From: an uncultured Desulfobacteraceae bacterium
GTDB taxonomy: Bacteria; Desulfobacterota; Desulfobacteria; Desulfobacterales; Desulfobacteraceae
Direction of reading: 5' to 3'
Assembly: GCA_913041495.1 (NCBI GenBank)
Contig: CAJWHT010000023.1
Span: 1 to 43,598 of the forward strand
DNA: 43,598 nt
In this document: positions 7,786 through 35,340 of the stretch, one piece after another
How positions within the stretch are numbered: position 1 is the stretch's first letter
Layout of the letters: each line of letters starts with the position of its first letter
The notes under the pieces: model-generated
Databases searched by the model: none
What the model saw: the letters and a program-made list of their open reading frames with translations, nothing else
Told to the model about the DNA's origin: nothing
Translations under genes and position numbers: made by a program

Positions 7786-9042
7786 TCAGGGTATCGCCTT
7801 GCCGTGGGGGTCCTGTGAGGGCCGCCCCAGCTTTTCATCCAGGTATTCCACGGTATCCCCCTTATCCAAATGCTCAAGTTTATGGGCCGTGGAGTGTACA
7901 TCCCCGTCCGGGGTGCCGATGCTCTCCAGGTATGTTTCCCAGAGGCGATGGGCCCTCAGAACTTTTCGCGCCTCGTTTTCCCCTTTTTCCGTCAGGGTGA
8001 AGCCTTTGGCAGCCTCGGACAGCAAACCGTCCTGGACCATTCGGGTCACCACCTTATTCAGGCTCTTTGCAGAGTCTACGTAGCGGCGGATGGCGTCTTC
8101 AGGGGCGGGGCCTTCATACCGGAGCACCGTGGTCAGCACATCTTCCACCGTCTGCTGGGGAACCAAAGAGCGCATGCGCAGCCAGCGGGACAGCAGGCCG
8201 TATTTGGGGGCAACGGTCAGCACCACCAGGAACTGCAGGGTGCAGAACAGCATAATGGCCCCGCCGCCGGCCGAATCCAGCCAGACACAGAGGTAAAGCC
8301 CTCCCACCACTGAGGTCACACCGAAAAGGGCTGCCAGCGCCATCATCTTGTCCAGGCGGTCGCTGAGCAGATAGGCCGTGGCTGCAGGGGTGATGAGCAG
8401 CCCCACCACGAGGATCACCCCCACCATGCTGACGGCGGAGACCACCACCAGGGAAACGCAGGTGGTGAGCAGATAGTCCAGAAGCACAACGGGCAATCCG
8501 ATGGACGCAGCCATCACCGGGTCAAATGTGGCCAGCTGGAAATGCCGGAAAAAAAAGATCAGTATGGTCAGAACGATGGCCGCCACAAAGACGGAGACCC
8601 AGAGGTCGGTATCCGCCACCCCCAGAATATCCCCCATGATGAAATGCATCAGGTCGATATGGATATAGTGCCGGAAAATGGAAACCGCCACCACGCCCAG
8701 GGCGAAAACCCCGGTGTACATGATACCGATGGCCGTATCTTCCTTTACCCTGGAAATCCGGGAGACGAAAGATATCAGGGCCACGGTGGTTATAGCGGCC
8801 AGAAGTGATCCCAGCAGCATCCCCGGGGCATGGGCCTCCAGCCCGAAAAAGAGTTTCATCACCAGGTAGCCGCCGGCCACGCCTGCGATCATGGCATGGG
8901 ACAGGGCGTCTCCCAGAAACGCCATGCGCCTCAGCACCACCAGGCAGCCCACCACACCGGCCACCACGGCCACCACGGAGCCCCCGATCAGGGCCTTTTG
9001 AAAATAGGTTTCCGTCAGAGGGGTTAAAAACAGTTCAACCAT
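7786..9042 (-). CDS. Metal ABC transporter permease fused to a DtxR/MntR-like domain
   Basis: The protein has 418 residues. Residues ~1-275 are an ABC-3 (ZnuB/MntB/TroC) permease with about eight to nine membrane helices, including the loop GDALSHAMIAGVAGGYLV. Residues ~295-365 form a winged-helix domain (start VEDVLTTVLRYEG, wing FTLTEKGENEA). Residues ~366-418 match the DtxR/MntR metal-binding/dimerisation helices (HRLWETYLESIG, then HSTAHKLEHL). Such permease-regulator fusions are known in the family. The start was set at ATG 9042 because AAGGAG sits seven bases upstream and overlap with the ATPase gene is then only 8 bases; a longer frame reaching 9141 is unlikely. It forms the membrane channel for a divalent metal; the tail may sense cytoplasmic metal. 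Confidence 0.9.
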   Translation of the reverse strand: MVELFLTPLTETYFQKALIGGSVVAVVAGVVGCLVVLRRMAFLGDALSHAMIAGVAGGYLVMKLFFGLEAHAPGMLLGSLLAAITTVALISFVSRISRVKEDTAIGIMYTGVFALGVVAVSIFRHYIHIDLMHFIMGDILGVADTDLWVSVFVAAIVLTILIFFFRHFQLATFDPVMAASIGLPVVLLDYLLTTCVSLVVVSAVSMVGVILVVGLLITPAATAYLLSDRLDKMMALAALFGVTSVVGGLYLCVWLDSAGGGAIMLFCTLQFLVVLTVAPKYGLLSRWLRMRSLVPQQTVEDVLTTVLRYEGPAPEDAIRRYVDSAKSLNKVVTRMVQDGLLSEAAKGFTLTEKGENEARKVLRAHRLWETYLESIGTPDGDVHSTAHKLEHLDKGDTVEYLDEKLGRPSQDPHGKAIP

Positions 9043-9802
9043 CGGCATTCTCCTTTTCCAGCACATCCCTGAAAATCCGCAGGCGTCCTTCGTACACCTG
9101 ACTGAGCAGGTCTTCCTGGAGCACCGCGGCAGGCACACCATAGGCGTACAGCCGCTGCTTGATCAGCAGGAGTTTATCAAAGTATTCCGCAGCCGTGGAC
9201 AGGTCATGGTGAACCACCACCAGGGTCTTGCCCGCCTTCTTCGCCCGTTCCAGCACCTCAAGAATGGCACGCTCCGTGGCGGCGTCCACACCGGCAAAAG
9301 GCTCGTCCAGCAGGAGGATATCACTGCCCTGAGCTAAGGCCCTGGCCATAAAGACCCGCTGCTGCTGCCCGCCGGAAAGCTCACCGATCTGGCGGTGGGC
9401 AAAATCGGCCATCCGTACCATGTCCAGTGCTCCCATGGCCGCGTCCCAAGCCTCTTTTCCCGGCGTGGCATACCAGGGGATCTGCTGGTACCGGCCCATC
9501 AGGGCCACCTCGCGGACAGTGATGGGAAAATCCCAGTCCACGGCGCCGCGCTGGGGTACGTAAGCCACCCGGCCCTTGGCTTTCTGGGCCGGGATGCCGT
9601 CGATGCGCACGGTGCCCAGATCCGGTTTCACAAATCCCAGAACCGCCTTGATAAATGTGGATTTACCCGCCCCGTTGGGTCCGATGATACCCACCAGTTG
9701 GTCGGTTTCAATATTCACGCTGACATCCAGCAGGGCCGGGCGGGCGTTATAACTGACGGTCAGATGTTCCACCTCTACGGCAAAGGGGTGATCATTGCCC
9801 AT
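9035..9802 (-). CDS. Metal ABC transporter ATPase (ZnuC/MntA/TroB-like)
   Basis: The protein has 255 residues. It carries a Walker A motif (GPNGAGKST), a Q-loop (AYVPQR), the ABC signature (LSGGQQQR), a Walker B motif (ILLLDEPFAGVD) and the H-loop histidine (VVHHDL). The sequence VDWDFPITVREVALMGR after the Q-loop is typical of the zinc/manganese/iron ABC subfamily. The ATG at 9802 was chosen over the longer frame to 9895 because it overlaps the upstream gene by only 11 bases, has GGAAG upstream, and the conserved domain starts immediately after it. The protein powers import with the permease encoded next. Confidence 0.93.
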   Translation of the reverse strand: MGNDHPFAVEVEHLTVSYNARPALLDVSVNIETDQLVGIIGPNGAGKSTFIKAVLGFVKPDLGTVRIDGIPAQKAKGRVAYVPQRGAVDWDFPITVREVALMGRYQQIPWYATPGKEAWDAAMGALDMVRMADFAHRQIGELSGGQQQRVFMARALAQGSDILLLDEPFAGVDAATERAILEVLERAKKAGKTLVVVHHDLSTAAEYFDKLLLIKQRLYAYGVPAAVLQEDLLSQVYEGRLRIFRDVLEKENADG

Positions 9803-10295
9803 GGTCGTCTTCCTTATGGTCTGTGAGTTCAAAACTGACGGTGCCGGAAACCAGGGCCCCGCGGCCGCCCCAGACGGTGCGGTCAACAATGACAAATCCC
9901 CGGTCCGTCACCCTCACCCTCAGGGCGTGGTCCATATGGCTCTCGGATGCGGGGGGGCTGGCTTTGACAAAAATCTCGTTCATCCCGGCATGCAACCCGG
10001 TAAGGCCGTCAATACGCAGTTGCTGCCCCCGGGCAAACCTCTCCTGGGAAAAGGGAACGGCGTCCCCGTTCAAGGCCAGGGTCACAGCGGCATCATCCGC
10101 CCCCGTATCCAGGGCAAAGGGGTCCTTTTCCATGGAAAATGTAGGGGTGACTTCCAGCACGAATTCCCCCGCCACCGTTTCCACTGTCCGTGGCTGGGAA
10201 GGCCCCTCCGGCAGGCCCCGGTCCCGCTGCCAGGTATACATCCACATCCCGCCCACCATAATGATCCAAATTAAGAGACTCAGTAAAAAACGCAT
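9792..10295 (-). CDS. Membrane-anchored periplasmic protein of unknown function in metal-ABC operon
   Basis: The protein has 167 residues: one N-terminal membrane helix (LLSLLIWIIMVGGMWMYTW) and a periplasmic beta-rich domain. It ends in an acid/histidine-rich tail (ELTDHKEDDHGQ) that could bind divalent metal. No family was recognised. The gene lies between the binding-protein gene (11 bases away) and the ATPase gene (11-base overlap), so it is almost certainly translated as part of the transporter operon and may hand metal to, or assemble with, the transporter. That role is inference from position and the His/Asp tail. Confidence 0.78.
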   Translation of the reverse strand: MRFLLSLLIWIIMVGGMWMYTWQRDRGLPEGPSQPRTVETVAGEFVLEVTPTFSMEKDPFALDTGADDAAVTLALNGDAVPFSQERFARGQQLRIDGLTGLHAGMNEIFVKASPPASESHMDHALRVRVTDRGFVIVDRTVWGGRGALVSGTVSFELTDHKEDDHGQ

Positions 10296-10306
10296 CCAAT
10301 ACCGCC

Positions 10307-11245
10307 TTATTTTAACGCGTTGACGATGAGCAGGGTGTTTTCCCGCATCATGCCGATATAGGTTTCACCGGCAGATCCTTCCGGTCCCATGGAATCGGAG
10401 TAGAGTTCCCCTCCGATCTTCACGCCGGTTTCCTTGGCGATTTCCCGGATCTGCTTGGGATTGATAGTGGTTTCTACAAAGATGGCAGGGGCACCCGACG
10501 CCTTGATGGATGCCACCACCTTCCGGCGGCGTTCCGGGGTAATACCCGCCCCGACTTCAGCCCCTGTGGACCAGCCCACCGGTGCAATGGACAAAAAATC
10601 GTTGTTTTCGTTGAACTTGTATTCCCGGCAGAAATAGTTGAAGGCGTCGTGGGTGGTAACCAGGATTCGCCGGTGGGTGGGGATCTGGTTGAGCTGTTCC
10701 CGGATCCAGGCATCCAGTACCCGGAGCTGCTGGAGAAAGAGCTTGGCCCTGGCCTGATACAGCCATTTGTTGTCCGGGTCCAACCTGACGATTCCCTTAA
10801 CGATGTTGTTCACATAAACGGCGGCATTGGCCGGAGAAAACCAGGCATGGGGATCGGTGATGGCCTGTCCCTCATTTTCAATTTCAAGGGGCCGGATGCC
10901 GTCGGTAACCGTCACCAACGGCTTTTTGGCATCTTTGGCCAAGGTGGCCATCCAGCTTTTACCTTCCAGATGCAGACCGTTTTCAAAGCAGAGATCGGCC
11001 CCCAGAACGATCTGCACGTCGTTGGGGGTCACATTGTAGGTGTGGGGGTCGGCTCCCGGTGCCAAAATGCTTTTAACGATGACCTGATCTCCTGCAATCT
11101 GCCGGGCAAAGTCTGCGATCTGGGTGGTGGAGGCCACGATGACCGACGTTTTACCGGATGATGCCCCGGCCGGAAGACTGATGCAAAGAGAAAGGACAAG
11201 CAACACCAGGATCTGGCCCGGCACATTCTTGAAAGGGTTTCGCAT
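10307..11245 (-). CDS. Metal ABC transporter substrate-binding protein (TroA/ZnuA-like)
   Basis: The protein has 312 residues, with a signal peptide over about 1-29. Cluster 9 (A-I) binding-protein motifs are clear: DPHTYNVTPNDV (His68), DPHAWFSP (His133), HDAFNYF (His199) and YSDSMGPEG (Asp284). The His-His-His-Asp set is like that of TroA and zinc-type proteins; manganese-type PsaA proteins have Glu at the third position. There is no His-rich loop of the kind seen in many ZnuA proteins. Zinc, iron or manganese all remain possible. A strong Shine-Dalgarno (AAAGGAG) precedes the ATG. This is the first gene of the five-gene minus-strand operon ending at 7327. Confidence 0.92.
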   Translation of the reverse strand: MRNPFKNVPGQILVLLVLSLCISLPAGASSGKTSVIVASTTQIADFARQIAGDQVIVKSILAPGADPHTYNVTPNDVQIVLGADLCFENGLHLEGKSWMATLAKDAKKPLVTVTDGIRPLEIENEGQAITDPHAWFSPANAAVYVNNIVKGIVRLDPDNKWLYQARAKLFLQQLRVLDAWIREQLNQIPTHRRILVTTHDAFNYFCREYKFNENNDFLSIAPVGWSTGAEVGAGITPERRRKVVASIKASGAPAIFVETTINPKQIREIAKETGVKIGGELYSDSMGPEGSAGETYIGMMRENTLLIVNALK

Positions 11246-11350: not shown

Positions 11351-11878
11351 TCAGCAGCAGGCCAGGAGGTCCTCGATATCCGGGTGTTCCCCGGCGCTGC
11401 GTTCCGCAAAATAGTACAGCAGCTTTTCCTCGGGGGAGATCACCGCAGCCCCGCCGAGCTGAAGGGTATTTCCCTGAACCGCCCCCTGCCTATGCCCGGA
11501 TTTCAGTGCAACAAGCCCCCGGAAAAGGACTCCGGGACGCAGTAGCCCTGAAATGCCGTTGGAAAACCCCAGAAGATCGTAGGCCTTTCGGCCGGGATCG
11601 GTAAAAAGAAGGCCTTTGTAACCGGTTGCCGCTCTAAAGGAGTCAAAATGTCTGGGGGAGCCGCTGCCGATCACCACCAGATTCAGGCCCCGCGCCTCAA
11701 AGGCATTCTGGTGTTGTGCCAGGTCAGCCACCTGCTGACGGCAGAACAGTCAGCCGAAGTGGCGGACAAACACCAGCACGGCGGTCCTGTCCAGCCACAA
11801 GCTGCCAAGGGGAACATCGCCGCCGTTTTCATCCACCACCATGGTCCCGCCCAGTTCATCTATCGGTACATCCTTCAT
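11351..11878 (-). CDS. Peroxiredoxin-like selenoprotein (AhpC/TSA-type thioredoxin fold, UxxC active site; UGA at codon 43)
   Basis: Reading from ATG 11878 (GGGAG six bases upstream) the frame is open except for one TGA at plus positions 11750-11752, codon 43. It sits in FVRHFG-U-LFC-RQQ, where thioredoxin-fold peroxiredoxin-like 2 proteins carry the redox CxxC. Downstream the frame continues with typical family sequence (VADLAQHQNAFE, VVIGSGSP, GLLFTDPGRKAYDLLGF, SPEEKLLYYFAERSAGEHPD) to a stop at 11351, giving 175 residues. A hairpin right after the TGA has SECIS features. The most likely reading is selenocysteine insertion, giving a UxxC redox enzyme of the cytoplasm. A caller treating TGA as stop would report only the downstream 126 codons. 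A pseudogene is the alternative, but conservation on both sides argues against it. Confidence 0.85.
11717..11752 (-). promoter_or_regulatory. Candidate bacterial SECIS element following the UGA codon
   Basis: On the minus strand, six bases after the TGA (11752-11750), TGCC (11743-11740) and GTCAGC (11739-11734) pair with GCTGAC (11728-11723) and GGCA (11720-11717). There is a two-base CT bulge and a five-base apical loop, AGGTG. The loop contains GGU, the feature SelB recognises in the E. coli fdhF SECIS. The loop GG lies 17 bases after the UGA, compared with 18 in fdhF (from memory of that sequence). Confidence 0.72.
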
Positions 11879-11979
11879 ATCGGTCTCCCGTTCCTTAATT
11901 TGCCTTTCCGGCACCCTGATCCGTTTGAAATATTTCTTGTGTCCGGCATGGTATCCCAGAGTGATGATGAAAATAAGTT

Positions 11980-31375: not shown

Positions 31376-32830
31376 TTATGCAGGCAGGATGATATTGAAG
31401 CGGTCCCGGATGGCCTGGTCCACCTCTTCGGTAATGTAGGATTTTTGGTTGGCCAAAAGTTTTTTAGCGATGTTCAGGGCCCGCTGACGGGCATCCAGGG
31501 AACCTTCGGCTTCCCACCGGTCACGGCTCTTTCTGTCCGTCACCCCGTTGGAATTGTAATATTCGCTGCGGATATGGGACATGGTGTGGGGGGCGGTCAT
31601 AAAGTTGCCGCCGGGGCCGACGGAATCGATGACTTCCAGGGCCAGATGTTCTTCGTCCACCTCGATGCCTTTGAGGACCTTGCAGGCATTTCCGATTATT
31701 TCATCGTCAATGACAAACTGCTCGTGGGCCACGGCCAGCATGGATTCCAGCATACCGGCGGCATGATGGATATAGTTGGAACCGCCCATGGCGTTGAGCA
31801 CGGCGGTAAACGCCTTTTCGTAACCGGCCTGGGCATCGGGCAGTTTGGCGTCGGAGAGGCATGAGGAGTTGTAGTTAGGTACTTTTATATATTCGGAAAG
31901 CTGGTGAATGGCCGCATTCATCATACCGCACTCCACGGCACCGCCGCAATAACCCATGGTGGCCAGGTTTGCCATGCCCGGGATACCGCCGTACAGCAGG
32001 GGGGCACCGGGGTTGGTGAGCTGGCATATAGTGACGCCGGCCAGTTCTTCGGCGTGGAGCTGGGCCAGGGTGCCGGCCATGGTCAACGGCGAGGTGGAAC
32101 CCGCCATAGGCGCGGAGGACAGGGCCACCGGAATCCGGTTACGGATGGCCTCCTGCATGATCAGGGTGGACTGGGTGCACAGTTTCAGGGGGCTGATGGC
32201 AAAGGAGGTGATCACGGAGATAAAGGGGCGTTCCTGAAGCTTTTCCTTGGAACCGGCGATCATGGAAGCCATCTCGATGACCTTGTGAAGGCCGGCCTCG
32301 TCGTTCACGCCGGACATCACATGCTTGCCCGACCCTCTCAGGCAGGTATAGAACATATTGATGTCGTAGTCTTTCTCGTCAATATCCGTGGGGATACAGG
32401 GACGGACCAGGAAATGGATGTTGTCCAGCTGATCCACCAGGCGGGATACGTCATGGAGGTCCTGGAGCGTGGTGGCACGGACCTCGCCGGTGTCCGGATC
32501 AAGGATCTTTATGGTGCCGCCGCCGGTGCCCATGTGCACCCGGTTTTCAGTAAGGTTGAGATCGTTCTTGGGATCACGGCCGCAGAGGACGACCTGCTCC
32601 GGTGCTTTGGCAACGGAAGCCTCGATCAGGTCCCTGGGAATGCAGATCCGTTTTTCATCCCGGTTGACCCGGGCACCGGCAGCCTCCAGCATATTTGCCG
32701 TGGCTTCCAGCCCGGTTTCATAGGTAATCCCTGTGGTCTCAAGTATCTGCAGTGCCGCACCGTGGATGGTTTTCACCTGGTCCTGGGTGAGGGGCTGGTA
32801 TTGTCCGCCCTGTAACCCCATTAAGTTCAT
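31376..32830 (-). CDS. MttB-family corrinoid methyltransferase, non-pyrrolysine
   Basis: The protein has 484 residues. Motifs of the trimethylamine methyltransferase family include VKTIHGAALQILETTGI, HMGTGGGTIKILDPDTGEVR, ALSSAPMAGSTSPLTMAGT and the late SDAKLPDAQAGYEKAF near residue 330, shared with the paralogue at 22534-23952. No in-frame amber codon is present, so it is not a pyrrolysine enzyme. With the adjacent corrinoid protein it should demethylate an N-methylated compound, most likely a quaternary amine; which one cannot be read from sequence. It is the first gene of the operon 32830 to 23964, with AAGGAG upstream. Confidence 0.93.
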   Translation of the reverse strand: MNLMGLQGGQYQPLTQDQVKTIHGAALQILETTGITYETGLEATANMLEAAGARVNRDEKRICIPRDLIEASVAKAPEQVVLCGRDPKNDLNLTENRVHMGTGGGTIKILDPDTGEVRATTLQDLHDVSRLVDQLDNIHFLVRPCIPTDIDEKDYDINMFYTCLRGSGKHVMSGVNDEAGLHKVIEMASMIAGSKEKLQERPFISVITSFAISPLKLCTQSTLIMQEAIRNRIPVALSSAPMAGSTSPLTMAGTLAQLHAEELAGVTICQLTNPGAPLLYGGIPGMANLATMGYCGGAVECGMMNAAIHQLSEYIKVPNYNSSCLSDAKLPDAQAGYEKAFTAVLNAMGGSNYIHHAAGMLESMLAVAHEQFVIDDEIIGNACKVLKGIEVDEEHLALEVIDSVGPGGNFMTAPHTMSHIRSEYYNSNGVTDRKSRDRWEAEGSLDARQRALNIAKKLLANQKSYITEEVDQAIRDRFNIILPA

Positions 32831-34977: not shown

Positions 34978-35340
34978 CACATCCTCCATGAGCATTGCAT
35001 ATGCAACCAGGCTGTCTCAAAGTTGAGACCCTGTGGCTTTCCGTCCCTGCCTCGAGATAGGTTTGGCCGAATTCAAAATTGAACACCTGCTTAACGATAA
35101 ATTATCCAGATACCTTATCTGCCTTTACGCGAAAAAACAAGGAAATACATACATTCTGGCTCTTATACAAGAGAACCGGGAATCCGAGGTATGAAGCAAT
35201 CCTGTCTCTTCTATATATTTCTTTATCCATTTTTTTATGGACCTTCGCTGCAAATCCGGGTAGAATGCCCCTACGATCAAAATAATCTTAACCTCTCTGC
35301 CCAGTGGCCGGGGCAATTTCAGAACGGCCGGAGGTCATAA
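34978..35340. promoter_or_regulatory. 363-base divergent intergenic region with three dyads
   Basis: Between the PEP-CTERM gene and the response-regulator gene there is no convincing gene. It contains a 12-bp palindrome TTGCATATGCAA (34995-35006), the dyad GTCTCAA-AG-TTGAGAC (35014-35029) and the palindrome TTCAA-AA-TTGAA (35072-35083). The last two share the core TCAAANTTGA. GGAGG precedes the response-regulator ATG. No good sigma-54 or sigma-70 promoter stands out. Confidence 0.5.

Follow-up and report, generated by a model that had tools for sequence, protein, structure and literature searches.

A peroxiredoxin-like gene with an in-frame UGA in an uncultured Desulfobacteraceae bacterium, probably encoding a SelL-related selenoprotein

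Reading frame and conservation of codon 43

A 43,598-nucleotide stretch of DNA from an uncultured Desulfobacteraceae bacterium (contig CAJWHT010000023.1; the whole stretch is called the window here) holds a peroxiredoxin-like frame that is broken by a single TGA. Is this TGA a selenocysteine (Sec) codon, a mutation or sequencing error, or simply the sign of a shorter gene? Our analysis points, with a probability of about 94%, to a selenoprotein of the PRXL2/SelL-related, peroxiredoxin-like kind, in which UGA 43 is translated as Sec by means of SelB and a hairpin. The frame extends on the minus strand from an ATG (11878-11876) to a stop codon (11353-11351), and the TGA at codon 43 (11752-11750), in the context FVRHFG-U-LFCRQQV, is its sole interruption. 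The coordinates 11351-11878, the codon number and the FVRHFG-U-LFC context had been given correctly in the original prediction, as had a ribosome site in front of the true ATG; the minus strand is added here. The features are as follows.

11351..11878, minus strand: probable SelL-related/PRXL2-like redox selenoprotein gene, 175 codons plus stop; open frame with one TGA, full-length alignment of relatives
11750..11752, minus strand: probable Sec codon 43, in-frame UGA; TGA in 17/17 close loci (window included) and 89/109 wide-set loci
11741..11743, minus strand: Cys46, second position of UxxC; C in 50, A in 35 and S in 4 of the 89 TGA loci
11723..11739, minus strand: SECIS hairpin, 6-pair stem GUCAGC/GCUGAC, loop AGGUG; loop start 16 nt past the UGA
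11885..11888, minus strand: likely ribosome-binding site GGAG, 6 nt 5' of the ATG, from sequence
11351..11731, minus strand: truncated table 11 ORF, GTG start, 126 aa; GTG in 6/17 loci, not conserved

Translation with table 11 yields only the 126-codon ORF from the GTG at codon 50 (11731), in agreement with the claim that standard annotation would start some 50 codons late; such plain annotation would shorten the gene and lose its active site. Profile scores rise when the TGA is read through: from 74.7 to 124.0 bits (Cys substituted for Sec) for NCBIfam NF040769, “SelL-related redox protein” (cut-off, 120), and from 16 to 38 bits for Pfam AhpC-TSA (cut-off, 26). Pfam AhpC-TSA_2 (PF13911; gathering cut-off, 27) gives 60.4 bits for the read-through protein and still 59.5 bits for the short ORF. 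The latter match, and the table 11 call itself, are what speaks for a 126-residue protein with the upstream part left untranslated. However, such a product would be without the active-site residue and the initial strands of the fold, its NF040769 score is 74.7 rather than 124.0 bits, the part upstream of its GTG aligns in 15 of 17 rows (window included), and the GTG sits inside the SECIS loop, in a column where the other loci have GTT (7 loci), GTA (2 loci) or GTC (2 loci). We regard this reading as very improbable. A scan for promoters and terminators returned one promoter-like site (0.7 in shuffles) and no terminator.

Relatives bear on the selenoprotein reading directly. A scan of the family gave matches in 23 of 86 genomes, of which 15 (the window's included) have long copies with one TGA, the others being weak or partial; the gene is thus patchy, with a long copy in 15/86 family genomes. 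Five named loci were also found (Desulfobacula, Desulfospira joergensenii, Desulfobacter, Desulfogranum marinum, and a Desulfocapsaceae metagenome-assembled genome). After removal of L021, L022, and L023 as repeats of L027, L029, and L031, the close set consists of 17 loci, namely, the window and 16 non-redundant relatives with 41 to 55% identity to the window protein. All 17 have TGA at the Sec column, one of them (L037) in a UxxS motif. As had been claimed, family-like sequence lies on both sides of the TGA: the proteins are similar before and after it, and the upstream part is alignable in 15 rows, including the window's. The other two, L038 and L039, are unalignable upstream of residue 29, where they were cut from the alignment; their 5' ends may be broken. 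Codon choice just after the TGA is fixed as well, with Arg+4 as CGT, Gln+5 and Gln+6 as CAG, and Ala+8 as GCT in 17/17 loci each, in contrast to Arg-4, for which five codons are used, and Val+7, for which all four are used. Because the TGA column is uniform, similarity is found on both sides of it, and the codons just after it are invariant, the read-through frame is, as judged from the aligned sequences, not a product of chance.

The same data bear on the reading of the gene as a pseudogene with a nonsense mutation, or of the TGA as a sequencing error for TGC or TGT. Broken-looking related copies do exist (L038, L039, L040/L048, and L099), but the window and 16/16 close relatives, from separate assemblies, share the TGA, which refutes this reading; dN is below dS after the TGA in 12/12 pairs of relatives (the pairs share rows), and the SECIS element is conserved. 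Before the TGA, dN is below dS in 9 of the 12 pairs, two others having no computable dS and one being reversed (L036/L039, in which the 5' end of L039 is unlike). We consider a pseudogene or an error almost certainly wrong. Two further candidates were rejected. (i) UGA as a Trp codon: the homologous position is occupied by Cys, and the same gene is also terminated by TGA. (ii) A second Sec at codon 176, the terminal TGA that follows Cys-Cys: relatives end at most about 12 residues away, with TAA, TAG or TGA, and no conserved Cys lies beyond.

For a wider view, a phylum scan with P0001 (15 of 395 genomes at E 1e-8) and a class scan with profile A1 (99 of 389 genomes) were performed, and sixty further stretches were then taken in. 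In the class scan at most eight candidates per genome were scored, and some paralogues may be missing. Among the resulting 109 distinct loci (window included; six hit rows without a letter at the Sec column were excluded from the count), the Sec column holds TGA in 89, Cys in 19 (12 TGC and 7 TGT), and TAA in one (L099). Because the search profile carried Cys at this column and stops were read as X, the wide-set search favoured Cys. The expectation that homologues have Cys or Sec at residue 43 is thus borne out in 108/109 loci, the remaining one being a broken copy, and the recurrence of this TGA across many genomes that were assembled separately disposes of a sequencing error. Twelve class-scan places outside the 109 have one in-frame TGA each, and one of them also has a TAA; in G492:C7 (model positions 64-142), the TGA cannot be the Sec codon. 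No plasmid or viral relatives were found at the limits used.

Individual copies deserve mention. L099 (G705:C66), with its TAA, has unlike sequence just upstream and is apparently broken, and the same genome holds a TGA copy, L135. L040/L048 (G067:C60) has matches to residues 3-42 and 124-173 only, as though its central part, Sec codon included, had been deleted. On G563:C30, a UxxC copy and a UxxA copy (L082 and L096) lie about 3 kb apart on opposite strands.

A hairpin within the coding sequence, and the selenium genes

In our proposal, SelB and Sec-tRNA(UCA) would decode the UGA at codon 43, aided by a hairpin inside the coding sequence 10 bases downstream. In the close loci, this hairpin has a 6-pair stem and an AGGUN loop that begins 16 nt past the UGA. 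The four invariant codons lie over it, and the third base of Val+7 is the free last base of its loop. In the 65 Sec loci of the RHFG type (62 distinct rows), 94.4% of the hairpin cells are paired, versus 28.9% when these columns are taken from the 19 Cys loci. Two-sided changes occur in 36 cells, versus 15.7 in shuffles, and covariation is 0.280, versus 0.146; none of 500 shuffles was as high in either measure. Pair 15-29, for instance, is U-A in 32 rows and G-C in 28, and pair 17-27 is A-U in 52 and G-C in 6. The number of pairs changed on both sides and the pair types, two of the five measures, were no better than shuffles, 263 of 500 of which reach them. When the hairpin was slid along the alignment, covariation was at most 0.139; a slide of -3 paired 79.6% of cells, with one two-sided cell.

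In 24 loci of the UPF type (L046 included), the hairpin stands in another register, with an AGUU loop 25 nt past the UGA. It is 90.5% paired, with 9 two-sided cells, versus 2.3 in shuffles (5/500 reach this value). The Cys control in this register is 42.1% paired and itself exceeds most shuffles on pairing (1/500) and covariation (8/500), so relatedness alone can go that far. Minimum-energy folds of 51 bases contained at least 4 of the 5 inner pairs of the first hairpin in 52/65 RHFG-type loci and at least 5 of the 7 pairs of the second in 21/24 UPF-type loci, and neither hairpin in any of the 19 Cys loci.

The window's hairpin has an energy of -14.1. Against dinucleotide shuffles it is not unusual (z -1.08; 29/200 fold as well); against synonymous-codon shuffles, z is -2.46. 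The mean z values in synonymous shuffles are modest, at -1.47 for UxxC (50 loci), -1.82 for UxxA (35 loci), -1.24 for UxxS (4 loci), and -0.71 for Cys (19 loci). The window hairpin agrees with the bacterial SECIS model as given in a 2026 review, i.e., a loop of 3-9, a stem of 4-16, a G in the first two loop positions, a spacing of 16-37 nt, and an energy of -7.5 or lower (PMC13188914).

The sel genes, whose presence had been proposed as a check, were found in the window's own genome. It encodes selA (527.6 bits), two copies of selD (367.8 and 353.8 bits), and a tRNA-Sec (selC; 74.6 bits, anticodon tca), while selB exists as two unjoined pieces at contig ends. One, covering profile positions 1-268, is near the end of C20; the other (306-580) lies where C313 begins and, as a fragment, scores 42.6 bits, below the cut-off. 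Both selD genes of this genome (L010 and L011, on C31 and C39) have one in-frame TGA and may themselves encode selenoproteins. Within the family, selA is present in 15/15 holders of a long copy and also in 80/86 genomes overall, so that co-occurrence of the gene with selA says little there. Outside the family, selA was found in 63 of 68 holders of a TGA copy, a survey that leaves aside G519 and the holders of the uncounted class-scan places. It was not found in the other five (G528, G583, G741, G549, and G154), four of which are at least 90% complete.

Family, predicted fold and proposed action

The read-through protein is near the edge of NF040769 (124.0 bits against the cut-off of 120), and in a whole-genome search with the stop read through it scored 114.9 bits, below the cut-off. 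Six of ten relatives tested fall below it, too: the Sec forms L037 (117.5), L083 (108.1), L088 (106.3), L091 (85.3), and L054 (106.7), and the Cys form L151 (92.0). L028, L104, L140, and L060 are above it. In the 395 phylum genomes, 7/8 places above the cut-off, and 17/25 places at E 1e-15, have one TGA somewhere in the frame. If these in-frame TGAs are Sec codons, NF040769 is largely a Sec family in this phylum.

A structure model built from six sequences has a pLDDT of 81.2 and a pTM of 0.78, with residues 109-138 poor, and places Sec43 between a strand (33-37) and a helix (44-54). The best PDB matches are human prostamide/PGF synthase, PRXL2B (9us9), and its C44S/C47S mutant (9usa), followed by Bcp/PrxQ and ResA. 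In the sequence alignment with 9us9, C44 lies over U43 and C47 over C46. Human PRXL2B resembles the window protein in fold (TM by query length, 0.72-0.76) and in its active site (RRFGCVVC versus RHFGULFC); it differs in having Cys instead of Sec, in sharing only 23-25% identity, and in being eukaryotic. SelL we take to be akin to PRXL2. Classical peroxiredoxins carry PxxxTxxC around the peroxidatic residue, whereas the window protein has VFVRHFGU.

The product would thus be a small, thioredoxin-fold, peroxiredoxin-like enzyme of the PRXL2/SelL-related family. By analogy with peroxiredoxin-like enzymes, Sec43, at the start of the helix, would be the attacking residue, its selenolate probably reducing a peroxide or disulfide. 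Sec43 would then form a selenenyl-sulfide with Cys46 as the resolving residue, and a thioredoxin-like or small-thiol donor would reset the enzyme. In sister proteins without Cys46, the reductant would have to resolve Sec directly. It is also possible, though less likely than not, that the UGA is recoded but the enzyme acts mainly as a thiol-disulfide oxidoreductase or on lipid endoperoxides. The prostamide/PGF synthase match points that way, as do the ResA-type oxidoreductases among the matches and the next gene downstream in Desulfospira (L022:2519-3952), in whose product a polyketide-cyclase-like domain is fused to a short-chain dehydrogenase. On the other hand, Bcp/PrxQ peroxidases also match the model, and conserved neighbours that would favour one substrate are lacking: a search of the relatives' flanks, mostly 0.5-2 kb a side, for seven proteins encoded next to the gene in the window gave no match (E 1e-6).

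The same search gave no support to an operon with the downstream metal transporter, which was considered and rejected (0/7 window neighbours in the flanks). The transporter set itself (7789-11245, minus strand) consists of a ZnuA-type binding protein, an ATPase, and an ABC-3 permease fused to an iron-dependent repressor C-terminal domain.

The gene is already known in kind, given its NF040769 score and a Sec-containing AhpC-TSA_2 protein in reviews. The latter (pfam13911/cd02970), from the Olavius algarvensis delta symbiont, has the motif UxxS (PMC9312934 and PMC13188914); compared by description only, it belongs to the same Pfam family as the window protein and likewise begins its motif with Sec, and it differs in having UxxS, found here in 4/89 loci, instead of UxxC. 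These two papers were the only ones to mention pfam13911 or cd02970 among the matches listed. SelL is described as a Prx-like selenoprotein (PMC2398784) with two Sec residues, two residues apart (PMC3316567). Its UxxU (diselenide) contrasts with the UxxC and single Sec of the window protein, which is therefore not SelL proper. In the marine metagenome study, Prx-like 1, 2 and 3 selenoproteins have Sec in the UxxC of a Prx-like protein, as in the window, and are placed in other Pfam families, pfam00578, pfam04592, and pfam08534 (PMC2398784). The phrase “SelL-related redox protein” was absent from the main texts of the literature searched.

Partner residue and phylogeny of the Sec and Cys forms

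The Sec proteins fall into three sets by motif: RHFG-U-xx-C (the window's), RHFG-U-xx-A/S, and U-PF-C. The gene had been predicted to encode a UxxC enzyme; the Sec part of this stands and is fixed, whereas the partner Cys does not hold as a family rule, since Ala or Ser replaces it in 39 of 89 TGA loci. Cys after Sec is absent in 24/34 UxxA proteins (24/33 in the RHFG set and 0/1 in the U-PF set), and Cys before Sec occurs in 5/33 RHFG-set UxxA proteins, a count that varies with the choice of start. A conserved C-terminal resolving Cys was considered and rejected as not general: Cys at +132 from Sec is found in 17/64 RHFG-set proteins (8/27 UxxC, the window among them, 2/4 UxxS, and 7/33 UxxA).

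A tree of 107 rows was inferred by a quick method, without bootstrap and with an arbitrary root, L155 and L046 being left out as short and two active-site columns being named for removal; 40 of its 104 inner branches are weak. The 19 Cys proteins cluster together with an SH-aLRT of 100, and the branch that carries them is long (1.36). Sec versus Cys takes one change on this tree, and the partner position takes at least nine among the Sec rows. Because the root is arbitrary and branches are weak, the tree does not give the direction of the Cys/Sec change.

The survey points to a Sec-dependent subfamily in Desulfobacteria with a covariation-supported SECIS element and an optional resolving Cys. 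Whether it is a deep, large subfamily of sulfate reducers, in which Sec is not seen exchanged for Cys, the partner is changeable, many enzymes have a single Sec with no further Cys behind it, and SECIS elements occur in two registers, we judge to be evenly balanced. If true, the subfamily would offer a natural test of the reasons for retaining Sec but not the resolving Cys. As a set, it could serve to study the role of Sec in peroxiredoxin-like enzymes that have no partner thiol. The subfamily's scale, the optional nature of its resolving Cys, and the existence of two SECIS registers were not found in the literature searched (main texts, with few subscription papers).

Two other elements were observed in the window. 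An Rfam PYLIS_3 match (31759-31858, minus strand; 53.9 bits) lies within an ORF of 484 codons (31376-32830, minus strand) that we presume, from the name of the Rfam family, to be MttB-like. Because this ORF has no in-frame TAG, it looks like a homologue without pyrrolysine. A c-di-GMP-I riboswitch aptamer is located at 34999-35077 on the minus strand (45.8 bits).
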